A stretch of DNA of 64,000 bases, from the NCBI GenBank assembly GCA_037951105.1, contig JBAMJV010003315.1, positions 1 through 64,000 on the forward strand, given 5' to 3'. The stretch is from Echinarachnius parma. Lineage: Eukaryota > Echinodermata > Echinoidea > Clypeasteroida > Echinarachniidae. Position numbers and translations under genes: made by a program. This document shows positions 3,191 to 63,015 of the stretch, in pieces. The notes below the pieces were generated by a model that worked only from the letters and a program-made list of their open reading frames with translations, was not told where the DNA came from and ran no database searches. Numbering within the stretch: the stretch's first letter is position 1; each line of letters begins with the position of its first letter.

Positions 3191-3753
3191 AAAGGGATAG
3201 TTGAGTTTTGGTAGAGAGGGCGCTACACACAATTTTTTTTTTGGTGAGATAATGAAAAACTGAGTGTCAATTTTGAAAGAGCATACAATTTTAATGGCAG
3301 AATAAACTTTATTTGATCAAATCGGTTCTGAAACGGCTGAAATATCCAAAAACATAACCATTTGTAATAAATGTGGGGCCCCCACAAGTATTCGATAATT
3401 TTAAACCACGCGATTAAAATTTGTTCTAAAATGCTTCCTCTTTCAAAAATTTTCAAAAGAGCTTTTTAGATAGTTTTGGATATCTCTCTATCTCTATCTA
3501 ATCACTATTTCAACAAAACATCAAATGCACAATATGTTATATTTTAAATGGTTTAAACAAATGCGTTTTTTGAAAGCGCCCTCTTAGTTTAAACAGCTCT
3601 TTTTTTTTAATGATAACAGGCTTTTTACTTAGTCGTTTGTAATTTTTGTATTCCTTTTGAGCATGGGGTGGAGTTATAATTATTAGTTTGTAATGTAATG
3701 GTGCAGGTTTTGGTTACTAACATTCAGTTTGACTAAAACTGTACTCTCTTTAC
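3191..3753 (+). mobile_element. TTAA MITE, family A copy 1
   Basis: The left end reads AAAGGGATAGTTGAGTTTTG. The right end is a decayed complement of it (ACTAAAACTGTACTCTCTTT). The interior carries the family landmarks in order: a GAGGGCGC word, a block related to GATAATGAAAAACTGAGTG, a block matching TTTATTTGATCAAAATCGG, a GGGGCCCCCAC mini-palindrome near 3374-3384, and a block ending GGTGGAGTTATAATTATTAG. No transposase is encoded. Confidence 0.85.
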
Positions 3754-8805: not shown

Positions 8806-9281
8806 GACGATTACTCTGAGTGTAAAACCTGAAAGAGCATACAATTTTAATGACAGAATGAACTTTATTTGATCAAATCGGTTCAGAAACGGCTAAAATA
8901 TCAATATCCGATCGAAATAATCTGGGCCCCAGATTGATTCAATGATTTTTTTTTCAATTAAAAAATGCTTACACTTTTTTCAAAATTTACAACAGAGGTT
9001 TTTAAATAGCTTGTTTATGATCTCTCTATTTAATCATTATTTCAACAAAACATCACATGCATAATTTTGTATGAATTTTTTTGTAAACCAATGCTTTTTT
9101 TAGAGAGCGCCCTCTTGTGTTTTAATGGCACTTTTTGAATGATAACAGGCTTTTTACTTAGTCGTTTGTAATTTTCTATACGTTTCGAGCATGGTGGAGT
9201 TATAGCTATTAGTTTGTAATGTGATTGTGCAGGTTTTGGTTACTAAAGCTCAGCCTTACCAAAACTTTACTACCCCTTTAA
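8806..9281 (+). mobile_element. Family A MITE copy 3, 5'-truncated
   Basis: Starts inside the family at CTCTGAGTGTAAAACCTG and runs through all later landmarks to an intact right end, ACCAAAACTTTACTACCCCT followed by TTAA. The left ~40 bases, including the left TIR, are missing. Confidence 0.85.
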
Positions 9282-10061: not shown

Positions 10062-10588
10062 TTATTGGTCAAACTAAATGATAGTAACCAAAACCTGCAC
10101 CATTACATTACAAACTAATAGTTATAACTCCATCATGCTCGAAAGGTATACAACAAATTACAAACGACTAAGTAAAAAGCCTGTTATCATTTAAAAAGAG
10201 CCATTACAACTCAAGATGGCGCCTTCTAAAAACTCATTGGTTTCAACCATTTTTAATTTAAAGAAAATGTGCATGTGATGTTTTGTTAAAATAATGATTA
10301 AATAGAGAGATCATCAACAACTAGTTAAAAACATCTTTGTAAATTTTTGAAAAGTGTAAGCATTTTTTTTTTTACAGCTGGTTCAAAATTATTGAATTAT
10401 TGTGGGGTCCCACAATAATTACAAATGGTTATATTTATCGCCGTCTCTGAACCGATTTTTGTCAAATAAAGTTATTATGTCATTACAATTGTATACTCTT
10501 TCAAATCTAACACTCGGTTTTTCATTACCTCACAAACAAATTATTTCGTGCAGCGCCCTCTATACCAAAACTCAACTATCCCCCTAAA
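10062..10588 (-). mobile_element. Family A MITE copy 4 (reverse)
   Basis: Family landmarks appear in reverse order: TTGGTCAAACTAAATGATAG, the AAAAAGAGCC block, the GGGGTCCCAC mini-palindrome near 10404, and the right end TACCAAAACTCAACTATCCC. The left end has decayed. The frame at 10402-10587 is a shadow of the repeat: related frames recur in other copies. Confidence 0.85.
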
Positions 10589-11059: not shown

Positions 11060-11602
11060 TTAAAGGGGTAGTTTAGTTTTGGTAAGGCTGAACTTTAGTA
11101 ACCAAACCTGGACAATAACCTTCAAAACTAATAGTAATAACTCCACTATGCTCGAAAAGTATACAAACTTGCAAAATGACTAAGTAAAAAGCATGTTATC
11201 ATTCAAAAAGAGCCATTTTGATCACGAGAGGGCGCTTTTTTAAAGGCGTCAGTTTCAACCATTTTCCATAGACAATAATGCATGTGATGTTTTATTACCA
11301 GACTGATTTTATAGAGAGAACATCAACAACTACTTAAATAATACTTTCGAATTTTTTTGAGAAAGTGGAAGCATTTTTTGAATTTTTTGAAAAAACCGTT
11401 AATTATTTGGGCCCCAAATAATTATAAGATCAGATACATTTATTGATATTTCAGCCGTTTGTGGGCCGATTTCGACCAAATAAAGTTTATTCTGCCATTA
11501 AAATTGCATGTTCTCTCAAATTTGACACTCAGTTTTTAATTACCTCACAAAAAAATTGCGATGTGCAGCGCCCTCTCTACCAAAACTAAACTACCCCTTT
11601 AA
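11060..11602 (-). mobile_element. Family A MITE copy 5 (reverse, complete)
   Basis: Flanked by TTAA on both sides (11060-11063 and 11599-11602). The left terminus is AGGGGTAGTTTAGTTTTGGT and the right is its complement. It inserted into a family C MITE remnant, which stops at its left border. Confidence 0.92.
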
Positions 11603-14312: not shown

Positions 14313-16856
14313 TAGCCGGAATATCGGAGTAGAGGATGCCTGCCTTGGACGTCTGGTCCTTGGACTGGTCAAGCTTCGCGGTGATGACGAATTTATCTGA
14401 ATAGGAATGGAAATATTTGTAAACAAAAAAGACAAAGTATTACATGTATAAACAAAACTACAATACAATTTAAGTTTTATCATAACACATGTTATTTTAA
14501 GGTAATCATCTCCCAAGCTCATATTATATTTATTAGATCACTTTTTTTAGTTGAATCCTTTTAGCGGTTTTAATTTCTTTATTGAATGAACCTACTCGAC
14601 TATAAAGTTGTTCAAGACACATTTTATTTTTTTTTAGCACAGGCTTCACCTATCCTACGGGAAATTTCCAACATCTTTGCCGTCAAATCAAATTAAAACG
14701 AATGCATTGACGTACCACCATCGAAGTCCACCGCCATCTTTTCACCAACACCATTGTAGACGATACCGTCGACCATCATGCCGATTGTATAGTAGGTCTT
14801 GGGAATCACGTGGTAGTTGATTAGACGCTGGAGCTTGGTCTTATTCGCCTTCAGGTCCGCCATGATGTCTGACGGAACGAGGTCAAACGCACGGTTGTCT
14901 GGCGCGAGCAGCGTCATGCCATTGTACGCTACAAATAATAAAAATTGCCATTATTTTTGTGTATGGTTGGTTTAGTTCGGGGGGGGGGGGGGGGGGCGGG
15001 TGATGATAAAGATTATAACGTAATTTTGTTTGAGAAAAATTCGGTTGCGTGGAAAATAGTACATGGGCTAAGAAAAGCACGTTGAATGATAATTCATTGA
15101 AACCTGCCAAAATCTTGATATCACTTTAGTTACCCTTAAAAAGACATAACCCAAGATCAAGTTGTGGCAACATAATTTTTGAGACTAATTGATTTAGAAA
15201 ATCTTGAAATCTGATCTGGAACCCGTTGTAGAAAGAGATGCAATTGATAGTTACGATTGCTTTGCCCGTTTCAACCAATCAGATTTGCGCATTTAGAACA
15301 CATGATCGGTTTGCAAGCAATTATAATTATGTAACTTATAAATCGATTGCATCTCTTTCTGTAACGGGGCCCCGGTCTTTAATAAATATACATTTTTAAA
15401 AGTATATACCTGAAAGGATTTGTTGTAGACCAGCCTTCTTCACGAGGTCGAAGAGCACGGAGAATTCATCGACCTTGGCTAGAGTATCGACGATGTTACC
15501 GTCTGGAAGAGGGTAGATCATCCCGTCGATGATGTGGACGAGGTTTTCGCCTTCTCTGTAATTTCCATCGACGACATTGGCGCCATTGACGGTCACAACC
15601 TAGAAAAACAAGGTGGAAATACAACAAAGACATGGCGTTGTTTTGATTTTATTATGAATACTGTCCACCCCTTTGGTTCTAAAAACCTGCAAGGGGGACC
15701 ACCGCGCAGGAAGATCGGCGGATATGGTTTGGTATAGTCTGAATAGCTAGTCTTCTGCAGATCCATCAAACAATTTAGTTTAATACATTTTCATATTCTA
15801 TAACTTTTCTGGAAACTTGTTTCGAACTTTTGTATGGTGGGACTACCAACACTATCTTTCATTTATTTGAACATTATGTTTGGGGTGTTGGTTCTCTTCA
15901 TTTTAATCAAACACAAGTGTCACGACCGTATCAACCCCTTCAATGTATTAGTTTATATTCCCATCAATTTCAATCATTTTATTTAGATATTAAAAAAAAA
16001 AGGCAGAACATCCAGATTCTTACCGAAGATCCATAAATGTTGGTTCGTAGTTTGACGTCTGTCGCAAGGGTGGCTAGCAGCATCTCGTCATAGATGTAAT
16101 GGTACCAGACGGCCTGGTCTGGGACGATCCAGGCCTTGGCAAGACTGGTCAGGACATCCTTATCCTCTGCAAGCTCTGCGGACACTTTCCGTCTCCACAT
16201 GCCGATGGCAGCGTCGTTCGGGATGAAGAGGGTGACGAATCCTGGGTATGAAGACGAAAGTTAATCGATATAAATTATTAATCCGTCTGATCCAGCGGAG
16301 TGTAATCGTTTTCTCACGTACTGCATAAAGAAATTCAGACCCGAAATGTGCAATTTTTATAATAAATAAAAGGAACATTATTGCAAAAGGTCACTAAAAC
16401 CAATTGTAATTCCACTTGAATAAATTAATTAGCGCATCGGGTTGTCAAACTTTAAATATTTCATGAACGATAATACTAAGTACATTTGAACACTAACAAC
16501 ATATTGAGAAACTTACTCATATGACTCTCACGGACAATCGTTTTGAGGTCGATTTTCTTCGCAATCTTGTCTGCTTCCATTAGGCCCAGGCGAGGAAGAA
16601 GGTCCAGCGCGTTCTCAGCTTCCCCGTTCCCTACCCCAAGCACGGTCTCCTTCGGTGCGACGACATCCACCATGCCGGAGTCGCGGGCCAACGCCCGCTT
16701 CAGGTACTCGCTGGAGGTCAACGGGTACTGGTTCTCACTACTTCCGATTCTGCTGCTGCTGCTGCGCATTCGGTCCCCATACTTCTTGTAGTCGAGCGGG
16801 ATGTCGGCAAACACCGCCCCGACGAACAGGGCGAGGACTACGATCAGTGACTGCAT
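14254..16856 (-). CDS. Secreted two-FAS1-domain protein (fasciclin/TGFBI-like), five exons
   Basis: Exons on the minus strand: 16856-16517, 16241-16024, 15599-15410, 14928-14716, 14396-14254 (stop TAG). All introns are GT...AG (275, 424, 481 and 319 bp) and phases 1, 0, 1, 1 join cleanly into 367 residues. ATG has A at -3. Residues 1-17 (MQSLIVVLALFVGAVFA) form a signal peptide. FAS1 domain 1, about 80-218, has the H1-like strand FVTLFIPNDAA (115-125) and H2-like VHIIDG (207-212). FAS1 domain 2, about 225-360, has MTLLAPDNRAF (254-264), the YHVIP motif (288-292) and NGVIHVIDK (350-358). There is no transmembrane segment, GPI signal or RGD. FAS1 proteins act outside the cell in adhesion and matrix; that role is inferred here. 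The second half matches the FAS1 consensus better than the first. A weak polyadenylation signal (ATTAAA on minus) lies at 13884-13889. Confidence 0.9.
15219..15373. mobile_element. Family C MITE inside FAS1 intron 3
   Basis: Left end CCCGTTGTAGAAAGAGATGC and right end GCATCTCTTTCTGTAACGGG are complementary, about 155 bp. It lies within intron 3, 37 bases from the donor of exon 3, without touching the splice signals. Confidence 0.88.
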
Positions 16857-17040
16857 GATGACTTTAAGACGATGCAGCTAGGAAGCACTCGGAATCAAGA
16901 CGAGAATACCGGACGGAGAGCACGTGTTGCGGGGTGGAGTGACACCGGTCGATGAATTGTAGCTAGATGCTGGTTTACACGGGTACTTATGAAGGAATGG
17001 AGTCGATGGACCAGTGAACTAGAGTAATATGGCCATTCAA
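16857..17040 (-). promoter_or_regulatory. Probable promoter/5' UTR of the FAS1 gene
   Basis: This is the sequence upstream of the start codon, bounded by the repeat-rich region that begins about 17040. It contains an E-box (CACGTG, 16921-16926) and is GC-richer than its surroundings. I see no clear TATA box. The assignment rests on position only. Confidence 0.35.
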
Positions 17041-17322
17041 ATTGTGCGCATACCTTAGTATCAACAAAAGGTTGTTCCTGGAAAGATGAGGATTATCTGA
17101 CGTAGCAACAGCGAGAAATGCATACAGGACTGCAATAGATCGATTCACTAACATAGTTATTTAAATTTATGCGCGTTCCTAATTGCCCGATGACCCAGGA
17201 ACAAACTCTTCAATGTACCCGTTGCTAAAACTGAAATAGCTGAAATTCACCTTGTATACTCAAGCTGTTGCCAGGTCTAGCAAAATGGATTTAGCTCTCA
17301 GTTTCAAAAGAACAACCTAAAA

Positions 17323-18898
17323 GCAAAGACACTACAAGGGGAAGACTGGACACTGCGCCGGTTTTGTACAGTGATCAATGAAACGCTGAATTTCGTACAT
17401 GGGGAAGGGCGCCCCTAGCGTTGGGTAGGTCAACTTCTTGTTGTTTTCGCGCGTAGCCATTGAAAACACAATAGGGAACTGGTAGTGAAGTATCAAATTC
17501 CTTCTTATTTTTGCTTTTTTATCTCAAAATGTACACCAAATATTAAAAGGAGTTTGTTTCTAAGTTTGTCTGTTTACAGGTGAAAATTTCCAAGAAATAT
17601 TTAATAGTAGACATGCAGAATCAACATTCACGTACAAGTTTCTTAATTTGCTTGCTGTTAAAAAAAGAACTCGTGTTCATCATCAGGATTGTTGCTGTTA
17701 CCTGTGTCATGGTTTGAAATCAAAATAGTAACTCTTATTTGAATACCTCTTTTCTCTTTATATGAAGAATTGTTGTTAACAAGAGTGTCAAATCCGAAAC
17801 ACAAGCATATTTTGTTAACTGCGGCGCAAAAAATCCAAGTCAAGTTAAAGTCATGCAGGAAATCTGGTTCCTCTTTTCACTTTCTTCTCCAAATTCGCAG
17901 ATTAAAACATAATGTTCACTTCTCATTTTCTATGCAAAAAACTACAGAAAAAAAAAAAGATTCGAGGATTTGAAAATTTTCATCTTTGTTGACAAATTTG
18001 CTCAAAAAGCAGAAATATCAAAAAACAAGTGTGCCTTATGTCTGCATATATTTCAAGTTCATAGTAATCTAATCCTGATATCCACATGGACACGAGTTAA
18101 TTTCATTATTTTTTTGTCCCTAGTTTGATTTATAACATTTTCACAAGTTCATAATTATTTCATATTTATGTATCCATGGTGAATGAAATGAAATATCAGG
18201 ATTTAGATTACTAGAAGTATGAACTTGAAATATATGCAGACATAAGGCACACTTGTTTTTTGATATTTCTGCTTTTTGAGCAAATTTGTCAACAAAGATG
18301 AAAATTTTCAAATCCTCAAATCTTTTTTTTTTTTTATTTCTGTAGTTTTTTGCATAGAAAATGAGAAGTGAACATTGTTTTAATCTGCGGATTTGGAGAA
18401 GAAAGTGAAAAGAGGAACCAGATTTCCTGCATGACTTTAACTTGACTTGGATTTTTTGCGCCGCAGTTAACAAAATGCTTGTGTTTCGGATGTGACACTC
18501 TTGTTAACAACAATTCTTCATATAAAGAGAAAAGAGGTATTCAAATAAAAGTTACTACTCAAACCATGACACAGGTAACAGCAAGCAAAGAAACTTGTAC
18601 GTGAATGTTGATTCTGCATGTCTACTATTAAATATTTTTTGGAAATTTTCACCTGTAAACAGACAAACTTAGAAACAAACTCCTTTTAATATTTGGTGTA
18701 CATTTTGAGATAAAAAAGCAAAAATAAGAAGGAATTTGATACTTCACTACCAGTTCCCTATTGTGTTTTCAATGGCTACGCGCGAAAACAACAAGAAGTT
18801 AACCTACCCAACGCTAGGGGCGCCCTTCCCCATGTACGAAATTCAGCGTTACACAAAATCCGCGAAGTGTCCAGTCTTCCCCTTGTAGTGTCTTTGCT
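17323..18898. mobile_element. Giant foldback element, ~760-bp arms
   Basis: The left arm (17323 to about 18082) and the right arm (about 18193-18898) are near-perfect complements, with a spacer of about 110 bases. Outer ends are GCAAAGACACTACAAGGGGA and TCCCCTTGTAGTGTCTTTGC. TAAAA flanks both sides (17318-17322 and 18899-18903). Differences between arms are mostly small indels in homopolymers plus a few substitutions. The same peptide frame appears in both arms (17770-17973 plus, 18141-18473 minus) only because the arms are mirror images; it has no recognisable domain. Transcription across it would give a long hairpin RNA. The left end lies about 470 bp from the FAS1 start codon. Confidence 0.93.
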
Positions 18899-19104
18899 AA
18901 AAGGTATGCACACTATTTGTATAAAGTAAAGCGTAATTATTATTTGTGCCGCGTTCCTAGCCTGATCACGCGGAAACAAGCTATTCAATTTACCCTTTTA
19001 CTTTTTATACGAGCATGCATGTAAATACCTGAAATCCACCTTCAGACTTAAAGGGATCTAGTAAAATTGTCAGAATCCCCAAAATAGCGGTTCTCACATA
19101 ACCC

Positions 19105-19369: not shown

Positions 19370-19664
19370 CCCTTTGTATTTGCATTACCACTAAAAGCAT
19401 GGGACATCTGTTGATTTTTCAAAATTTCTCCCCCGTTGTATGAGATAGATATGTACGATTGAAGTGTTCAGGATTCATTATTTTCTAGTGGATAATTATT
19501 ACTGTGTAGTGCGATTAGTTAGCAATTATCACTTGCATTTTAGCTCATTGCACGGTAATATCTATGACATGTATTTACCATCCAATGTTAACACATCACT
19601 CAGTTGACATATCAGATCACAAAAATAGTATACATTTTTTCAACCATTAATTTGCCAGTTTTTG

Positions 19665-21149
19665 CAGGGGCGTCGATCCTGGGGGGCAGGGGGGGGCGGT
19701 CGCCCCCCCAATAAAAATATTGGGGGGGCGAACATATCATTTCGCCCCCCCCAATAATTCCGAAAACGAGGAAGAAAAAATCAAGTGATATAATGCCAAA
19801 GAGGGGATAGGACACATTTATCAATAATTAATCTTCAAAATAGCCGTTTTCTAGTTTGAAAAGGACTGTAAATCTCTTTTTGCCGCGCGCTTCGCGCGCA
19901 TACAGTTTATCATATTGCAAGTTTCATTTGGGTTGCGGGAACTCACATGTGTTGGCAGTGTAATTTCTCAAACGCACACCTCACACGAAGTTAATTAAAC
20001 CCTCATCTATAGATAGCCCCCCCCCCCCCCCCCCCCGTCACATAAAATAAAATAATCTGAAATATATCTTTCAGTCAATTCGGTCCATATGCGCTGAACG
20101 CAAATCATATTGGAATATTATCATGTCCCCCCACATTTGAAAGTGGTGAAGATTGTCCCCCTCCCTTTGTCATTATGTATGTTTGGTTCCATACTTATAT
20201 ACTTCATATAACGTGAAATTTCTGTCTCAGGTGTGCACCAAATCGCACAATTTCACACCCCAAAATACAAAAGCTCCCTACTGTGGGAGGGGGACACCCC
20301 CTCCCACACCCTCCCCCGCTCGGTCGCTTCGCTTCCTCGCAATGTCTCCCCTCAAGTTTTGAGAAGTTGTTGACGCCCTTGCTTAGTTTCATGGGAGCCC
20401 AATGCCCGAGACTATATCGATGGCTCTATAGTAATACAGGATCACGTAGATCCATCTCATGCAAGGCTCAATCTTTCCTCGCTATGCCCTTTAAAAGTAC
20501 GTTACGAGTATAGGTTAACTATTTTATACAATTTTTACACCCATGATAGGAGTTGCAAATGTCTGAAATCTAAAAGCTTCCGGGGGCTCCGCCCCCTGGA
20601 CCCCCATTATTGTCCCCAAATGTGGGTGCCCCCCAAATCAGGTCTTCGAGCCATCAAGACACTTTCAATGAGCGCATAATAAAACTTCCGGGCATGCCAA
20701 TGTGGGGCTTTTAGCTCTCTCAGTGGTCACTCGGGAATTTTTTTTCAAATTTCGCCCCCCCCAATATCAAAAACGGATCGATGGCTCTATAGTAATACAG
20801 GATCACGTAGATCCATCTCATGCAAGGCTCAATCTTTCCTCGCTATGCCCTTTAAAAGTACGTTACGAGTATAGGTTAACTATTTTATACAATTTTTACA
20901 CCCATGATAGGAGTTGCAAATGTCTGAAATCTAAAAGCTTCCGGGGGCTCCGCCCCCTGGACCGCCATTATTGTCCCCAAATGTGGGTGCCCCCCAAATC
21001 AGGTCTTCGAGCCATCAAGACACTTTCAATGAGCGCATAATAAAACTTCCGGGCATGCCAATGTGGGGCTTTTAGCTCTCTCAGTGGTCACTCGGGAATT
21101 TTTTTTCAAATTTCGCCCCCCCAATATCAAAAACGGATCGACGCCCCTG
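19665..21149 (+). mobile_element. hAT-like element, family J copy 2
   Basis: Perfect 8-bp target duplication AGTTTTTG at 19657-19664 and 21150-21157. Termini are CAGGGGCGTCGATCC and its complement. It is about 340-380 bp longer than copies 1 and 3, mostly because the last 361 bp are duplicated in tandem. It lies inside a family B MITE. Confidence 0.95.
20419..21142. repeat. 361-bp internal tandem duplication in family J copy 2
   Basis: The block beginning ATGGCTCTATAGTAATACAG at about 20420 recurs 361 bases later at about 20781. The junction joins the near-terminal word AACGGATCGA to ATGGCTC and shares TCGA with both parents, suggesting a microhomology-driven duplication. The two units are nearly identical, so the event is recent. 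Confidence 0.95.
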
Positions 21150-26382: not shown

Positions 26383-26725
26383 TTAAAGGGATAGTACAGT
26401 TCTGGTCAAACTGAATTTTAGTAACCAAAACTAGCACCATATCACTACCTGACTACAAACTAATAGTTATAACTCCACCGTGCCCGAAAGGAAGAACAAC
26501 TTACAAACGGCTAAGTAAGAGTAATGTTATCATTAAAAAAAAAACAGCCGATAAAACCAAAGAGGGCGCCCTCTAAAAACACATCGGTTTCAACCATTTA
26601 TACAATTAACTGTGAATGTAATGTTTTGTTAAAAATAATGATGATTCAATATAGAGATCATCATTACTATTCAAAAACGTCTTTGATAACAATTTTCCGG
26701 TTTGGGGAAAGTAATGCAAACTCTA
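26383..26725 (-). mobile_element. Family A MITE copy 7 (reverse, right-truncated)
   Basis: TTAAAGGGATAGTACAGTTC at the left, then the usual ordered landmarks in reverse orientation up to about 26725. The last third, including the far TIR, is missing. Confidence 0.85.
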
Positions 26726-29099: not shown

Positions 29100-29639
29100 T
29101 TAAAGGGATGGTTGGTAACGAGAGGACAGTTTTGGTCAAACTGAATTTTAGTAACCAAAATATGCACCATTACATTACAAACTGATAGGTATAACTCCAC
29201 CATGCTCGAAAGGAATACAAAATTACTAATGACTAAGTAAAAAGCCCGTTATCATTTTTAAAAAAGAGCCGTTAAAACTCATCGGTTTCAACCATTTGAA
29301 ATAAAATATTTTGCATGTGATGTTTTGTTGAAATAGTGATTAGATAGAGAGATAATCAACAACTGTTCAAAAACCTCTTTTGTAATTTTTCAAAAAGAGG
29401 AAGCATTTAAAAAAATATTTAACGGCTGGTTCAAAATTATTGAATAATTGTGGGCCCCCACAGTTATTACAAATGGTTATATTAATATTTCAGCCATTTC
29501 TGAACTGATTTGATCATATAAAGTTAATTCTGTCATTAAAATTGTATGCTCTTTCACATTCGACACTCAGTTTTTCATTAATCTCACAATTGTTTGTGTG
29601 TGTAGCCCCCTCTATACCAAAACTCAACTATCCCTTTAA
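29100..29639 (-). mobile_element. Family A MITE copy 9 (reverse, complete)
   Basis: TTAA at 29100-29103 and 29636-29639. The right terminus ACCAAAACTCAACTATCCCT is intact. The left terminus carries a ~10-base insertion between AAAGGGATGG and ACAGTTTTGG. Confidence 0.9.
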
Positions 29640-30785: not shown

Positions 30786-32118
30786 TTAAAGGGGCTATTT
30801 ATTGATATTGAATTTAGATTCAGCTCATATTTCCATATTTACACAATCCATAACACGAATATTACTAGTAAATGTTTCAAAACATTGTTACTAAGAAGTT
30901 ATCATCAATGAAATAGTGGTAATTCGTAAGCCCATTATGGCATCAAAAATCCCGCCGAAAACCAGCTGAAATACTGTGACGTCAGTGTGTGGTCGAGTTG
31001 TCATTAGCAGACGATGTCCGAACACATTTTTATAGTGCCTTTTTCAAATGACTCTGTTCAATCATCCTTGTTTATTAAAGGGGACCACCAGGCAAAGGAC
31101 AACACATTATTATATGTTTTGGTACCGTTTTGTGATATCAAATAGATACCCAACATTTTGCAAAGGGTTGTGTAATTCATAAACAAAGCAATTAATTTCC
31201 ACCACTTACGGAACCACGGCTATTTCCTGGTTCCATACGGGCCAAGCATTTGCGAGTGCGCCAATGCTTTCACGCGTACGTCAATAGATTCCCGGATGAT
31301 TCATTCGCTCTGTACAGTGCGCTCTGGCTCTGCACGCATATAGTCTACGCAATTCAGACCGCATGTACGCATGGTTGAGAATGGTGATGCGTTTTCCAAT
31401 TATATATTTTTTTCTGAAAACATATTTTTGTGAACTTGTTGAAGGAATGGAATACTAAAGATGGTACCTTTCTATAATAAGAATATTATTTTTGGATGGT
31501 GGTACCCTTTAAGGAGAAAAGTTGTCATTATGTGCTCCACTGTCTCACTCTTAAAAGCACTTTGTTGTCTTTTGAAACACAATTCTCCCGTAAAGCATGT
31601 TAAATAGATTTGTTTGTATCTATCACGTCGCCCATAAGTATCACACGCAGTACTGCAAATTCAGCGACACCCGCATCAAAATACAGCTGTTGAACAATGG
31701 GCTAATAGAATCGTGCCAAGACCTTGGCGGGTCTTTCAAGCAGATAAAGTAGGACGGTGTGTGACTTACTTCATTGAATTTGTCTTTCTTTCAGTAAATG
31801 TCTCCGAGTGAATGATCATTGTGCAGAGATGGAGGTAAACCTTATTTACGAAATGCAATAAAATAAATGCGCTATCGTGGCAAGAATACACGTTTAGCAG
31901 GCAATAAGACTTCACTTATGGTTGTGTGGATTCGTAATGAGACATCGTCTGCTAATGATAACTCGCCCCACACAATGACGTCATCAAAACATTGGCGATT
32001 CTTTTAGTACAAAGAGCGCTTGTTTTCGATTCTTGCGATGGGGTTTTATTTTGTTGTTGTACGAGGATATCGTGTTGGTATGGGACATAAAAAGTATATA
32101 TTTTTAATCTGTTAGCCC
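30786..32118. mobile_element. Large inverted-repeat element interrupted by a MITE
   Basis: Begins TTTAAAGGGGCTATTTATTG. An inner block around 30975-31020 (GTGTGTGGTCGAGTTGTCAT, GCAGACGATGTC) is mirrored at about 31935-31985. Family H copy 1 (31075-31512) sits between the arms. The right end is poorly preserved (GTTAGCCCCTAG near 32110), so that limit is approximate. A matching single end (AATAGCCCCTTTAA) lies at 34984-34997. Confidence 0.55.
31075..31512 (+). mobile_element. TTAA MITE family H copy 1
   Basis: The left end TTAAAGGGGACCACCAGGC is mirrored by GGTGGTACCCTTTAA. TTAA at 31075-31078 and 31509-31512. A reversed copy lies at 38703-39065; shared words include ATATCAAATAGATACCCAAC and AAAGGGTTGTGTAATTC. 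Confidence 0.85.
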
Positions 32119-32808: not shown

Positions 32809-33348
32809 TTAAAGGGATAGTTGAGTTTTGGTCAAAACTTTAGTAACCAAAACCTGCACCATAACATTATAAACTAATAAATATAACTCCACCATGCTCT
32901 AAATGTATAACAAATTACAAACGACTAAGTAAAAAGCCTGTTATCATTCAAAAAGAGCTCTTAAAACACAAGAGGGTGCTCTCTAAAACGCATTGGTTTA
33001 AACCATTTTTTATAACAAATTGTGCATGTGATGTTTTGTTGGAATAATGATTAAATAGAGAGATCATCAACAACTATTTTAAACCTCTTTTGTATAGTTT
33101 TTAAAAAGAGTAAACATTTTATTTAGTTTTTCTTCAAATCATCGAATAATCCTGGGGTCCCAGGTTTATTCCGGTCAGATATATTTATTAATATTTCAGC
33201 TGTTTCTGAACCGATTTTCATCAAATAAAGTTTATTCCGTCATTAAAATTGTTTGCTCTTTCAAATTTGACACTCAGTTTTATTATTACGTCACAACAAA
33301 ACAAATTCTTGAAGCGTCCTCTATACCAAAACTCAACCATCCCTTTAA
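32809..33348 (-). mobile_element. Family A MITE copy 10 (reverse, complete)
   Basis: TTAA at 32809-32812 and 33345-33348. Both TIRs are close to consensus (AGGGATAGTTGAGTTTTGGT and ACCAAAACTCAACCATCCCT). It contains the GGGGTCCCAG mini-palindrome near 33153. Confidence 0.93.
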
Positions 33349-33494: not shown

Positions 33495-33881
33495 TTAAAG
33501 GGATCTAGTAACTTTGTTGACATGTGCAAAAAGTGATGAAGGGTTGATGCAATGTATATTGTTGTTATCTCATATGTCCACAGGGTATTGTGTGAAAATT
33601 TCAAGTCAAATGGACATTGCATGACCAAGTAATGAGCGAAAATGCAAATTGATATTCACTGACTCACTGCACTCACTTTGTACACGGTAAGAAATACTCC
33701 GGGGGAGTTTTTCTTATCTGAATACTTCAATCGTACATATCTTTGTAACGAAAGGGAAATTTGAAAAACCGAAACCGGTCCCATGATTTTATTGTTAATA
33801 CGAATACAACAAGGTATGATGGAACCACTAGAATAAAAAAAATATTTTGAGGATTTGGACAATGTTACTAAGTCCCTTTAA
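33495..33881 (+). mobile_element. TTAA MITE family B copy 1 (complete)
   Basis: TTAA at 33495-33498 and 33878-33881. Left end AGGGATCTAGTAACTTTGTT, right end ATGTTACTAAGTCCCT. 387 bp. A good reference for the uninterrupted family. Confidence 0.92.
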
Positions 33882-34022
33882 AAACCCGTTAAAGCTAAAA
33901 TATAACAACCTTTAAATAGCCTGATATAATTTACATGATGTATGGGATGTCATGGCTTTGGGCCATTATAAACTATTACTAAACATAACTTGTGCACAGC
34001 TCCTTGCTGTGCGAGGGATGCC

Positions 34023-39065: not shown

Positions 39066-39520
39066 AGCCAAATAACAGTACTGGGAAACGCCCCACACAC
39101 ACAAAAATGAAAAATATGCCTTCATCACCTACCACGTGAAAGAATCATAGCTTAGATGTAAATGTAAAGATTTGGACAAAAACTGCTTTACAATTGAGTA
39201 TTTGAGCATTTTTTGGTTCCAAAATAAAAACGAACGTTATCAAAGTCCGATTTAACCGCATGCAGAACGGCTATACGCTGCGTGCAGAAGACCATGCGGT
39301 GTGCGGGCTTGTCGATATCTCCATCCCAGTGCTAGCGGCGCGGACAGGTGCGAACGGGCAGTGGATTTATAGCCAAATTTCTTCCGACATTTAACGATAC
39401 TAAGGTCGGATTTTACCACACAAGCTCTTTAAAAACATTCTTATTCAACAATACTGATCACTTAGTTTGGCCAATATAGATTTGTTCGGTAACTTTCCCA
39501 AAACTATTATTTTGCTTTAA
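39062..39520 (+). mobile_element. TTAA MITE family G copy 2
   Basis: Left TTAAAGCCAAATAACAG, right CTATTATTTTGCTTTAA. Both TTAA borders are shared with neighbours (family H at 39062-39065, family B at 39517-39520). Confidence 0.87.
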
Positions 39521-39923
39521 AGGGATCTCGTAACGTTGTTAACATGACTGTGCAAAAAGTGATGAGTGGTTGATACAATGTATAATTGTTGATACAATGT
39601 ATAATTGTTATCTGATATGTCCACTGGGTGTTGTGTGAAAATTCCAAGATAAATGGACGTTATATGACCGATTAATGAGCAAAAATGCAAAGTGATATTC
39701 ACTAACTAATTGCACTCACTTTGTACACGGTTTTCGCGGTCCAGTGGATAATTTAACATCTGAACACTTCAATCGTAGATATCTTTTTAACGAAAGGGAA
39801 ATTTGAAAAACCGAAACCTGTCCCATGCTTTAATTGTTAATACGAATACAACAAGGTATGAGGGAACCGCTAGAATTCCAATTGGATTTTGAGGATTTGG
39901 AAAATGTTACTAAGTCCCTTTAA
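39517..39923 (+). mobile_element. TTAA MITE family B copy 2
   Basis: Left TTAAAGGGATCTCGTAACGT, right ATGTTACTAAGTCCCTTTAA; TTAA at 39517-39520 and 39920-39923. A 22-base word (TTGATACAATGTATAA plus flank) is duplicated in tandem at 39570-39610 compared with copy 1. Confidence 0.92.
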
Positions 39924-44428: not shown

Positions 44429-44955
44429 TTAAAGGGGTAGTACAGTTTTGGTAAGGCTGAGCTTTAGTAATCAAAACCTGCACAATAACTTTTACAAACT
44501 AATAGTAATAACTCCACCATGCTCGAAATGAATAGAACATTACAAACGACTAAGTAAAAAGCATGTTATCATTCAAAAAGAGCCATTAAAACACACGAAG
44601 GCGCACTCTAAAAAAGCATTGGTTTCAACCATTTTTCATACAAAATTATGCATGTGAGGTTTTGTTGAAATAATGATTGAATAGAGAGATCATCAACAAC
44701 TGTTTAAAAACCTCTTTTGAAAATTTTGGACAAAGTGTAGGCTTTTGTAAATTTAAAACAAAAATCATCGAATAAATCTGGGCCCCAGATTTATTCCAAT
44801 TGGATATATTTATTAACATTTCAGCCGTTTTTTAACCGATTTTGATCAAATAAAGTTTATTCTGCCATTACAAATTTTACACTCAGTTTTTCATTATCTC
44901 ACAAATTTTTTTTTTGTGCAGCGCCCTCTATACCAAAACTGAACTACCCCTTTAA
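44429..44955 (-). mobile_element. Family A MITE copy 12 (reverse, complete)
   Basis: TTAA at 44429-44432 and 44952-44955. Termini AGGGGTAGTACAGTTTTGGT and ACCAAAACTGAACTACCCCT. Contains the GGGCCCCAG mini-palindrome near 44780. Confidence 0.94.
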
Positions 44956-45677: not shown

Positions 45678-46043
45678 TTAAAGGTGCACCTGTAAAGTGT
45701 CTAACTCCACGAAAATTAATTTGAGCTTCCACATTTCTCTTCTACCGTGTTGTTTGGCTTATGGTAAGAGAAGAATACAATAGGGTTAGATTTTTTTCAA
45801 ATGCCCCTTTAGTATGACGATATCTATCATTGATAATCATTCAGCTCAAGAACGTCATACAGTAATTCGTTGTACATGTAAAATCTGACTCAAATTTTCG
45901 CTTTTTTATCCAGGAAAGCAGACTTTTTTTTCAATGAAACTTTCACACATCATTCGGACATATCTTACAATGATTCTGGTATAGGATTGAAGTTTCAAAT
46001 GTCATTTTGGGCAATATCTGACACTTTACAGGTGCACCTTTAA
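45678..46043. mobile_element. TTAA MITE family F copy 1 (AGGTGCACC ends)
   Basis: Left TTAAAGGTGCACCTGTAAAG and right CTTTACAGGTGCACCTTTAA are complementary. The right TTAA (46040-46043) is shared with the next family B copy. Confidence 0.9.
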
Positions 46044-46968
46044 AGGGGTCTAGTAACTTTGTTGGCAAGTGCAAAAAGTGATGAGTGATTAATAAAATGT
46101 GTATTGGAGTGATCTGATATGTCCACAAAGTAATGTGTGAACAAAATTCACTTTAATTGGATGTTTTTTAGCCGAGATATGAGCAAACATGCAAAGTGAT
46201 ATTCACTATACTCATTGTCATTGTACTTACTTTGTACATGGCATGAAATTATCCCGTAAACAATTTCATATCTGAACATTTCAATCGTAAATATATTTTG
46301 AAGGAAATGGAAATTTGAAAAACCTAAACCTGTCCCGTGCTTTTATAGTTAAAGGGGTAGTTTAGTTTTGGTAGAGAGGGCGCTGCACATCACAATTTTT
46401 TTGTAAGGTAATGAAAAACTGAGTGTCGAATTTGAGAGAACATGCAATTTTAATGGCAGAATAAACTTTATTTGGTCAAAATCGGTCCAGAAACGGCTGA
46501 AATATAAAAAATATATCTGATCTTATAATTATTTGGGGCCCAAATAATGAATTTTTCAAAAAATTAAAAAAATGCATACACTTTTTCAAAAATGTTCAAA
46601 ATCGTTTTTGAATTAGTTGTTCATGATCTCTCTATTTAATCATGATTTCAATAAAACGTCACATGCATAATTTTGTATGAAAAATGGTTAAAACCAATGC
46701 CTATTTAGAGAGCGCCCTCTTGTGTTTTAATGGCTCTTTTTGAATGATAATGGGCTTTTTACTTAGTCGTTTGTAATTTTGTATACCTTTCGAGCATGGT
46801 GGAGTTATAACTATTAGTTTATAATGTTACTGTCCAGGTTTGGTTACTAAAATTCAGCCTTACCAAAACTATACTACCACTTTAATATGAATATGATAAG
46901 GTATAAGAGAACCACTAGAGTTCCAAGTAAGTTTTGAGGATTTGGACAATGTTACTAAGTCCCTTTAA
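46040..46968 (+). mobile_element. TTAA MITE family B copy 3, split by a family A MITE
   Basis: Left TTAAAGGGGTCTAGTAACTT, right ATGTTACTAAGTCCCTTTAA. When 46349-46881 is removed the sequence is collinear with 33495-33881 and 39517-39923. Confidence 0.92.
46349..46885 (+). mobile_element. Family A MITE copy 13 (complete, nested)
   Basis: TTAA at 46349-46352 and 46882-46885. The uninterrupted family B copies read TTGTTAATACGAATA at this point, so the empty site has a single TTAA. That proves a TTAA target duplication. Confidence 0.95.
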
Positions 46969-51164: not shown

Positions 51165-52610
51165 TAGTCCAGTCAATATCAATATAGGGTCTTGACCTCG
51201 GCAAAATTGCAACATGGGAATTTTCTTCGGAATTCTGTTCAGGAAACTCCCTTGAACAACGTAATAAAAGTCCTAAGAAATTGAAGCTACGGAAAGTGGT
51301 TTAATTTGCATTAATATAAGCTAATTTGCATATTTCTGAAATGCGGTGAGGGGTCATTTTCTATCTAGGAATAGCACAATATTGATAAAAACGATTATAC
51401 TAGGGTAATTTAGGGCAAGGCATCCATTAACGGTGCTCATTTGCATGTGGTCATATAGGCAACGCCCTAAAAGCCAAGATGGCTGCCCCTAATTTGCATA
51501 TTTATGAATATTATTGGTATTAAGTGGTTACAGCCTCTAATGAGCAATCATTCCGGATTATTATTTTTCATTCATGTTCTAAATATGTAGTGAAGCTATT
51601 TCAGATTAGTTGCCACCTTGGAAACCTCTATAAATGCATAAAATTTGCATAATTGGGTTATTTACCTAATTTGCATATTCCCCCAAATTGAGTATATTGG
51701 GAGCCCGGAAACTAAAAATTACAAGTTATACCACTTTTTCCAAGGTTTTGGGGGGCAACAAGTCCATTTTGTATACTTATTTTCCAAATAGCACCATGGC
51801 AACCTTCTTTAAATGCAAGATGGCTGCTCCCCACATTTTCACATGTAATGATACACAACTTCATTCTTGCAATGTGCTAACAGTGAAACAAATTATGCTC
51901 TAAAAAATGCCGTTAAAGTGGCAAATAGCATTATCTCCTTTAAATGCCAAATACGGCCATCTTGGATTTATGTGGGTTGCCAAGGTGATACGTCGAATTA
52001 AGTATCATAAATGGATTTCCTGCCCCCAAAAACCTTGGAAAAGTGGTATTTCACGTCATTTTTACTTTCCGGGTATACTCAATTTGGGGAATATGCAAAT
52101 TAGGTAAATAATAAAATTATGCTAATTATATGCATTGCAAGAGGTTGCCAAGGCGGCAACCAAGCTGAAGTATCTTTGATATACATTTAGAACATGATTA
52201 AAGAAAAAAACACTATAATTATTGCTTATTAGAGGCTGTAGCCAATGAAAACCAATAATATTCATAAATATGCAAATTAGGAAGCAGCCATCTTGGATTT
52301 CAGGGTTTTCTCCATATGGCACTCGCAAACGAGCACCGGAAATGGATTCCTTGCCCCAAAATACCTTAGAATATTTGTTTTAATTACTAGCGTACTATTC
52401 CTAGATAGAAAATGACCCCTGACCATATTTCATAATTATGCAAATTTGCTAATTATCTTTATAATGCAAATTAAACCACTTCCGCAACTCCGATTTCTTG
52501 GGACTTTTTTTTGGTTGTTAAGGGGAGTTTCCTGAACAGAATTCCGAAAAAATCCCGTGTTGCAATTTTGCCGAGGTTACCCCCTTATATATGCTAGATT
52601 GACTGGACTA
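51165..52610. mobile_element. Foldback element, ~680-bp arms
   Basis: Ordered words of the left arm (GTCATTTTCTATCTAGGAAT, CAAGATGGCTGCCCCTAATT, TTACAGCCTCTAATGAGCAA, TTGCCACCTTGG, CCACTTTTTCCAAGGTTTTG, AAGATGGCTGCTCCCCAC) appear in mirror order on the right. The centre is about 51835-51965. Arms are more diverged than those of 17323-18898. Confidence 0.9.
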
Positions 52611-53790: not shown

Positions 53791-55470
53791 TTTTGCTTAT
53801 ACCCCCACGTCCAGCTCACGTTCACTGCCTGTTCTCCCGGTGTGACGAAACCGTGGATTTAGCAGTGGAACGTGGGGACTGGTTACACTGGTACGTATTG
53901 ATGTCAGGATTACGCTCCAACCATACGCCCTCGTCACGTTCACTTCCTGTTCACAAGATGAGACGACAACGTGGGATTTAACGCCCACCACAACGTCCAT
54001 GTCAACGTTCACTACCAATTCTAAATGTGTGACGACAGCATGGATTTAAACAAGGACAGTGAACGTTGACTGGTTACGGCACGTCACGTTTCAGCTCCGC
54101 CCCTACCAGGGGCGTCGATCCTGGGGGGGCAGGGGGGGCGGTCGCCCCCCCAATGAAAATATTGGGGGGGCGAACATATCATTTCGCCCCCCCAATAATT
54201 CCGAAAATGAGAAAGAAAAAAATCGAGTGATATAATGCCAAAGACGGGAAAGACACATTCATCAATAATTAATCTTCAAAATAGCCGTTTTTTAGTTTGA
54301 AAAGGACTGTAAATCTCCTTTTTGCCGCGCGCTTCGCGCGCATGTACAGTTTCTCATATTGCAAGTTTAAATTGGGTTGTGGGAACTCACCTTTCGAAAT
54401 GTGTTGGGCAGTGTAATTTCTCAAAAGCACACCTCAAACAAAGTTTATTAAACCCTCATCTATAGATAGCACACCGTCACAGAAAATAAAATAATCTGAA
54501 ATATATCTTTCAGTCAAATCGGTCCATATGCGCTGAACGCAAATCCAATTGGAATATCATTTCCCCCCACATTTGAAAGTGGAGGAGATTGTCCCCCTCC
54601 CTTTGTCATTATGTATGTTTGGTTCCATACTTCATATTACGAGAAATTTCTGTCTCGGGTGTGCACCAAATCGCACAATTTCACGCCCAAAAATACAAAA
54701 GCTCCCTACTGTGGGAGGGGGACACCCCCTCCCACACCCTCCCCCGCTCGGTCGCTTCGCTTCCTCGCAATGTCTCTCCTCCACTTTTGAAAAGTTGTTT
54801 ACGCCCTTGCTTAGTTTCATGGGAGCCCAATGCCCTAGACTATAACGATGGCTCTATAGTATAGGATCACGTGAATCCATCTCATACAAGGCTCAATATT
54901 TTCCTCGCTATATGCCCTTAAAAATACGTTACGAGTATAGGTTCACTATTTTATACAATTTTAACACCCATGATAGGAGTTGCAAATGTCTGAAATCTAA
55001 AAGCTTCCGGGGGCTCCGCCCCCTGGACCCCCATTATTGTCCCCAAATGTGGGTGACCCCCAAAGTCAGGTCTTCGAGCCATGAAGACACTTTCGATGAG
55101 CGCATATCCGGGCATTCCAATATGGAGCTTTTTGCTCTCTCTGTGGTCACTCTGGAAATTTTTTTTCAAATTTCGCCCCCCCAATCGCAAAAACGGATCG
55201 ACGCCCCTGGCCCCTACCCTACGTCCACGTCACGTTCACTAACCCTAACCTGTCCTCGGGGTGTGACGACACAATGTTATTCACTAAGAAACAGTAACTT
55301 AGTGAACTGGTTACGTGCTGGGGACACGATGTAATAAGACTCCGCCCCTCCTTCCACCTCACGTTCACTTCCTGTTCTGGATTCAACCAAGGTCTGGTAA
55401 TATTGGTATAAGTACACCCCACGTTCGCAACAATCATGTTCTCCGAGAGTGACGACAGCGTGACTTTGGC
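53790..55470. repeat. Degenerate minisatellite, interrupted by family J copy 3
   Basis: Words TCACGTTCACTTCCTGTTC and GTGTGACGACAACGTGGATT recur near 53815, 53935, 54003, 55228, 55364 and 55421 at irregular ~60-135 base spacing. The hAT-like element at 54107-55209 sits inside the array. Confidence 0.75.
54107..55209 (+). mobile_element. hAT-like element, family J copy 3
   Basis: Perfect 8-bp target duplication GCCCCTAC (54099-54106, 55210-55217). 1103 bp, without the tandem duplication of copy 2 and with shorter G/C runs, so probably the closest to the family consensus. Near-identical to copy 1 over most of its length. Confidence 0.96.
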
Positions 55471-58411: not shown

Positions 58412-58763
58412 TTAAAGGGACTTAGTAACATTGTCCAAATCCTCAAAATACAATTGGAATTCTAGCGGTTCCCTCATACCTTGTTGTATTCGTATTAACG
58501 ATAAAATCATGGGACAGGTTTCGGTTTTTCAAATTTCCCTTTCGTTAAAAAGATATTTACGATTGAAGTGTTCAGATGTTAAATAATCCAACGGATCGCG
58601 AAAACCGTGTACAAAGTGAGTGCAATGAGTTTGTGAACATCACTTTGCATTTTTGCTCATTTTCACACAATACCCTGTGGACATATCAGATAACAACAAT
58701 ATACATTGTATCAACCATTCATCACTTTTTACACATGTCAACAAAGTTACTAGATCCCTTTAA
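58412..58763 (-). mobile_element. TTAA MITE family B copy 4 (reverse, complete)
   Basis: TTAA at 58412-58415 and 58760-58763; termini AGGGACTTAGTAACATTGTC and CAAAGTTACTAGATCCCT. Confidence 0.92.
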
Positions 58764-59139: not shown

Positions 59140-59602
59140 TTAAAGGGATCTATATTCTAGTAACGTTTGTTGGCAATGTGCAAAAACCGATGAAGGCTTG
59201 ATAAATTATGCATTTTCAAAAACTGTTGTTGAAGGGTCGATAAATTATGCATTTCCATGATCCGATAAATATGTCCACTGAGTGATGTGTAGAAATCCCA
59301 TGGTAAATGAATGCCATATGACTGAGCAACGAGCGAAACTGCAAAGTGGTATTGCCTATCTCATTGCACTGACAGTTGAACATTTCCGCTATAGTAGAGA
59401 CTCTAAGAGACTTTTAAATCCGAACACTTCGATAATAATTTTTGTTTTTTATAACAAAAGATATATTCGGAAAAAAGAAACCGGTTCCATGCGTCTTTTG
59501 GTTATTATACAAAATATGAATACACAACCAGGTATGATAGAACCGCTAGTCTATAGAGTTCTATTAAAGTAAGTTGTGTGGTTATTGACATTGTGACTAG
59601 GT
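59140..59602 (+). mobile_element. Family B copy 5 (diverged, right end lost)
   Basis: TTAAAGGGATCTATATTCTA, then TAACGTTTGTTGGCAATGTG and later landmarks (ATGTCCACTGAGTGATGTG, ACATTGTGACTAG). A local repeat (TAAATTATGCATTTYCA twice, 59200-59255) expands it. The 96-codon frame at 59282-59572 is not conserved in other copies and is rejected as a gene. Confidence 0.8.
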
Positions 59603-61472: not shown

Positions 61473-61976
61473 TTAAAGGGGTAGTTCAGTTTTGGTATAA
61501 TTTATTTGTGAGATAATGAAAAACTGAGTGTCAAATTTGACAGAGCATACAATTTTAATGACAGAATAAAATTTATTTGATCAAAATCGGTTCAGAAACG
61601 GCTGAAATATCAATAAATATATCCGATCGGAATAAATCTGGGGCCCAGATTTATTCGATGATTTTTTTTTATTAAAAAAATGCTTACACTTTTTCTAAAA
61701 TTTTCAAAGGAGGTTTTCAAATAGTTGTTGATGATTTAGTCATCATTTCAACAAAACATCACATGCATAATTTTGTATGAAACTGGTTGAAACCAATGCT
61801 TTTTTTTATAGAGCGCCCTCTTGTGTTTTAATTGCTCTTTTTGAATGATAACATGCTTTTTACTTAGTCGTTTGTAATTTTCTATACCATCCAAGCATGG
61901 TGGAGTTATAACTATTAGTTTGTGCAGGTTTTGGTGACTAAAGCTCAGCCTTACCAAAACTGTACTACCCCTTTAA
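61473..61976 (+). mobile_element. Family A MITE copy 15 (nearly complete)
   Basis: TTAA at 61473-61476 and 61973-61976. The duplicate locus reads ACAGATTAACTGTTGG (TTAA 62806-62809), which is the empty site. A short deletion after the left TIR removes the GAGGGCGC block. Confidence 0.97.
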
Positions 61977-62760: not shown

Positions 62761-63015
62761 AGTGTAGTGTGGTGGATCATCATCATCATAAGGATACATT
62801 ACAGATTAACTGTTGGGGGACTGATCCGTTTCGAACTCAGGACCTCTTGATTAGAATATCATAATTATGCGCCCATCAATGTGCCACCTGCTGTTAATGG
62901 AGACCTTGTTAATGGGGAATAAAAGAATGTATAAATGAAAACAGACAAGAAAGGCGATGAGTTGTATTTTTCCTTAACTATTAAATCTATGTAACAATGT
63001 ACACGCCTAAGACAA

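Follow-up and report, generated by a model that had tools for sequence, protein, structure and literature searches.

The stretch of Echinarachnius parma DNA analysed here (64,000 nucleotides, hereafter the window) carries two families of short repeats, which BLAST places at 15 locations for family A and eight for family B, fragments included. An earlier note on this DNA had likewise counted about 15 family A copies in 64 kb. Family A elements are about 530 bp long (504–543 bp in the six window copies whose two ends are intact or almost intact) and family B elements about 350–410 bp. The intact family A copy used as a query lies at 44429–44955 (plus strand, 527 bp). Full-length copies with TTAA on both sides are located at 11060–11602 and, for an AGGGA subtype, at 32809–33348 (both plus strand; BLAST and copy alignment), and a further copy at 29100–29639 (plus strand; motif count and BLAST) exhibits TTAAAGGGR at both ends. 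BLAST also detects two diverged copies, one at 3191–3748 (minus strand, TTAA intact at neither end) and one at 10065–10582 (plus strand), as well as a truncated copy at 8816–9281 (minus strand) and a partial copy at 26383–26696 (plus strand), each with one intact end.

Neither family carries a long reading frame, the longest stop-to-stop frames spanning 49–83 amino acids in seven family A copies and 62–73 in three family B copies. Both are abundant: in the 1.2 Gb genome, the family A query yielded 10154 first-look candidates, and among the 40 of these 10154 that were scored, 39 are 85–90% identical to it (the window's own match aside). Families A and B are thus short, noncoding, flanked by terminal inverted repeats (TIRs) and present in high copy number, as MITEs are. 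Pairwise K2P distances range from 0.095 to 0.323 among the seven family A copies, so family A spans a long period, and from 0.065 to 0.161 among the three family B copies. When these seven family A copies are compared, both ends carry the same subtype letters at 11060–11602 (AGGGGTAGTTTAG) and match in subtype at 32809–33348 (AGGGATAGTTGAG and AGGGATGGTTGAG), while the letters differ between ends in the others.

The window contains other elements. A family with CAGGGGCGTCGATCC ends, which we take to be hAT-like, is present at 19665–21149, 1851–2995 and 54106–55209; the first of these copies is inserted within a family B MITE, shows AGTTTTTG (8 bp) at both sides, and includes a near-exact internal tandem duplication (20416–20781 and 20777–21141, 99.5%). 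A long inverted repeat at 17315–18905, with arms 89–99% complementary in six pieces, matches a foldback element or a recent palindromic insertion in size, and a second long palindromic element lies at 51222–52552 (arms 81–85% complementary, three pieces). Two facing TTAAAGGGGCTATT ends at 30786 and 34997, 4.2 kb apart, enclose family A and B copies and may reflect chance or an older nested element. Finally, we scanned 75 window ORFs of at least 76 amino acids (chosen from 237 of at least 62 amino acids) with Pfam. No transposase was found among them; two minus-strand ORFs, at 14696–14950 and 15982–16260, contain a fasciclin domain (E-values of 1.7e-10 and 3.3e-07) and are probably exons of one gene, and single matches concern four other families, none of them a transposase. 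Four ORFs neighbouring the fasciclin pair, including 16479–16877, have no Pfam match.

One family A copy is nested inside a family B MITE. It extends from 46349 (TTAAAGGGGTAG) to 46885 (CTACCACTTTAA), on the minus strand relative to the 44429 copy, measures 537 bp including both TTAA, and is flanked by TTAA on the left and on the right. BLAST and junction alignment assign the interrupted family B element (plus strand) a left part at 46040–46352, through the left TTAA, and a right part at 46882–46968, from the right TTAA, confirming the coordinates at which the earlier note had described a family A copy splitting a family B MITE. We joined the two family B flanks over one TTAA and compared the result with the available sequence by BLAST. 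Eight uninterrupted family B relatives cover the insertion point, and six of them read G[TTAA]TA, which extends the GTTAAT reported previously from two copies, 33495–33881 and 39517–39923 (both plus strand), and read correctly there. The joined junction aligns without gap at the site to these two window copies (at 33554–33882 and 39607–39923), to a third one that had not been used before (58412–58763, minus strand; aligned at 58660–58411), and to copies in three further contigs of this genome (L023, L005 and L006). The remaining two relatives do not show TTAA and are taken as decayed: the copy at 19374–19666 (70% identity to 39517–39923) has GTAA at the insertion point, and the copy at 59140–59549 (69% identity) has extra bases there and no clean alignment.

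The same test was conducted on 31 of the 32 full-length family A copies described below, namely those flanked by 80 bases or more on each side, and revealed one clean case beyond 46349–46885. At 61473–61976 (minus strand), a family A MITE splits another repeat, the filled site reading TTACAGA[TTAA]AGGGG...CCCCT[TTAA]CTGTTGGG, and an unfilled copy of that repeat at 62761–62998 (plus strand) reads TTACAGA[TTAA]CTGTTGGG; the two copies of the split repeat are 83.7% identical over 246 columns. As queries with family B gave no match to this repeat at E-values up to 1e-4, the two empty sites are independent. The previous empty-site evidence, while sound at 46349–46885, had thus overlooked a second pair. 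At both loci the unfilled site has one TTAA and the filled site two, which contradicts the possibility, raised in the earlier note, that the TTAA simply belongs to the TIR. For the remaining copies tested, no unfilled relative was found in the sequence searched, besides a weak spanning match of L015 to its own flank (89 columns, 73%) which was not counted as an empty site. In the test of the family B site, a match of L006 to window positions 11296–11026 was also discarded, as it compares a neighbouring family A copy and does not represent an empty site.

To describe target sites across copies, we considered family A copies as full-length when aligned to within five bases of both query ends, a definition which favours intact ends. 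From the 40 scored matches, 27 distinct places were fetched, window included; these are mostly the best-scoring ones and therefore lean towards query-like copies. After dropping the window itself (L001) and one row corresponding to the same place as another (L009, same as L002), 26 fetched places remained, to which we added five of the 15 window places and a second copy in L004, for a total of 32 copies. Three copies with repeated flanks (L012, L019 and L024) were then removed, leaving 29 independent copies. The contig pairs L008/L012, L019/L020 and L021/L024 show identical insertions and flanks, as from uncollapsed haplotypes.

TTAA begins at 0.8% of window positions. Among the 29 independent copies, it is found on the left in 25 (the others reading ATAA twice, TATA once and TTAT once) and on the right in 28 (TTCA once). 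Both sides read TTAA in 24 of the 29, a proportion which the selection of intact ends favours. The two ATAA copies have TTAA on the right. The base beyond TTAA is mixed (A9 T9 G8 C3 on one side and T8 A8 C7 G6 on the other). Anchoring family A ends on the interior gave 76 matches, reduced to 69 by identical flank; in these 69 fuzzy matches, some of which are due to chance, the letters tallied were the first three of TTAA, which are conserved in 59 (T), 62 (T) and 65 (A) of the 69, and the outside base, which varies (T25 A20 G14 C10). For family B, TTAA is present at all 12 ends of the six copies aligning to both ends, a set which also favours intact ends. Evidence that family A MITEs insert at TTAA thus comes both from the two independent empty sites and from 24 of the 29 copies.

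The termini are equally regular. Most family A copies read 5'-AGGGG...CCCCT-3': AGGGG is found at the element start in 25 of the 29 independent copies, and in the reverse complement of the end in 25 as well. The TIR had been described as starting with AGGGG and not CCY, which holds for most copies; the right end of the 46349–46885 copy is an exception, being mutated to AGTGG. Elements start with AG in 28 of 29 cases (AC in one) and end with CT in all 29, in agreement with the 5'-RR...YY-3' ends of Kolobok elements. Family A heads read TTAA-AGGGG and family B heads TTAA-AGGGA. With up to two mismatches, TTAAAGGGGTAGT ends occur 18 times in the window versus 2.0 expected (maximum of seven in 100 shuffles), and TTAAAGGRR, the motif of Xenopus T2-MITEs, which both families display, occurs 35 times versus 4.2 expected. 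Comparison with BLAST matches places 27 of these 35 occurrences on or beside family A or B copies, including one (59140) assigned by adjacency as it lies just beyond the BLAST match. We did not retain further TTAAAGGRR families in the window, as the eight leftover occurrences are not far above the chance expectation of 4.2. A scan of viral contigs for the TIR pattern returned no match, nor did a literature search with TTAAAGGRR as a word.

Kolobok elements are described as generating a TTAA-specific 4-bp duplication and, unlike piggyBac, as having 5'-RR and YY-3' ends (PMC9587614). The T2-MITEs of Xenopus, which combine a TTAA target with terminal AGGRR, are regarded in PMC6004289 as non-autonomous Kolobok elements. 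Families A and B are therefore very probably noncoding Kolobok-superfamily MITEs of the Xenopus T2-MITE type, mobilised in trans at TTAA; the basis for this assignment is the target site and the terminal bases rather than a transposase sequence. As both families fit TTAA plus AGGRR, host and guest at 46040–46968 would be of the same type, and the discrepancy between AGGGG and CCY that had puzzled the earlier note disappears. A Kolobok DDD/E transposase acting in trans would recognise the AGGGR-headed TIRs, excise the element and reinsert it into a TTAA, so that the copy ends up between two TTAA; at 46349–46885, the family A element would have used a TTAA within an older family B element. Movement would thus be of the cut-and-paste kind. 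Three observations go against this reading, namely the lack of any transposase among the 75 window ORFs scanned, the two ATAA/TTAA copies and the diverged uninterrupted family B copy with GTAA.

More speculatively, families A and B could be two diverged MITE lines kept by one long-lived Kolobok lineage, perhaps as KolobokP-like solo LTDRs, and reusing each other's TTAA duplications, a scenario which we hold to be improbable. In L006 (1115–2037), an element of family A adjoins one of family B and the two have one TTAA in common, as expected if one had targeted the other's duplication; one element there seems to have inserted into the target duplication of the other. Less probable still is that family A is not a simple MITE but a solo LTDR of a KolobokP composite-like element. 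KolobokP LTDRs are reported in PMC9587614 to be about 450 or 660 bp long, to have short TIRs and RR...YY ends, and to occur frequently as solo copies, whereas the 504–543 bp of the six window family A copies fall between the two reported sizes, and none of the 75 ORFs scanned encodes a transposase.

The length of the duplication deserves separate consideration. The earlier note presented the nested insertion as direct proof of a TTAA duplication. This is justified for targeting, given two empty sites and 24 of 29 copies, but not for a duplication of exactly 4 bp: given an element whose first base is A and whose last is T, and a target which is almost always TTAA, duplications of TA, of TAA or TTA, and of TTAA leave the same letters in filled and empty sites. 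PIF/Harbinger MITEs generate a 3-bp TWA duplication and Tc1/mariner MITEs a 2-bp TA duplication. With TTAA as its strict target, family A might have duplicated TA, like Tc1/mariner, or TAA/TTA, like PIF/Harbinger; the element would in that case have AA or A before GGGG. The two ATAA...TTAA copies among 29 are compatible with a shorter duplication at ATAA, and also with one mutation. We consider such a duplication unlikely. At the outermost position of TTAA the letter is nearly as constant as at the inner ones while the adjacent outer base is varied, whereas a TA-targeting element should tolerate other neighbouring bases; moreover, an already described superfamily combines TTAA with RR/YY ends. 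Both arguments favour four bases, and the duplication at TTAA is probably of exactly that length.

The piggyBac-type transposition proposed in the earlier note is the least tenable reading. A piggyBac transposase acting on MITEs with divergent termini would account for the TTAA target at the two empty sites, as piggyBac also duplicates TTAA, but PMC2872659 describes its CC[C/T]T terminal motif as necessary for transposition, and this motif is lacking in 29 of 29 family A copies, all of which begin with A and finish with T (AG at 28 starts, CT at 29 ends), so that we reject the assignment as highly improbable. A likely misannotation is thereby corrected: TTAA by itself does not indicate piggyBac, and it is the terminal dinucleotide which decides. 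The termini thus point to a superfamily, Kolobok, for the commonest small repeats found in the locus, and the filled/empty pairs provide clean pre-integration evidence, which is of use in genome annotation and will not surprise specialists.

Families A and B are an ordinary case, being new members of a known MITE type. The closest likeness is with the Xenopus T2-MITEs (PMC6004289), which are also short, non-autonomous and divided into several subfamilies, with a TTAA target and terminal AGGRR; they are a different set of sequences, the likeness concerning target and terminal motif. Among autonomous Xenopus Koloboks, XKol A5 (PMC6004289, Table 5) resembles family A in having TTAA on both sides and AGGGG as its first five bases. 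Unlike families A and B, the autonomous elements in that table are 6.8–13.9 kb long and carry a transposase, and the bases past AGGGG differ. The solo LTDRs of KolobokP described in PMC9587614 share short TIRs, RR...YY ends and a length of several hundred bp with families A and B, but they measure about 450 or 660 bp and derive from composite-like elements, none of which was seen here. Finally, the coral CMITEs, assigned to piggyBac in PMC2872659, show the same TTAA duplication, for which an element-free allele served as evidence, but have CC[C/T]T termini and a length of about 100 bp.
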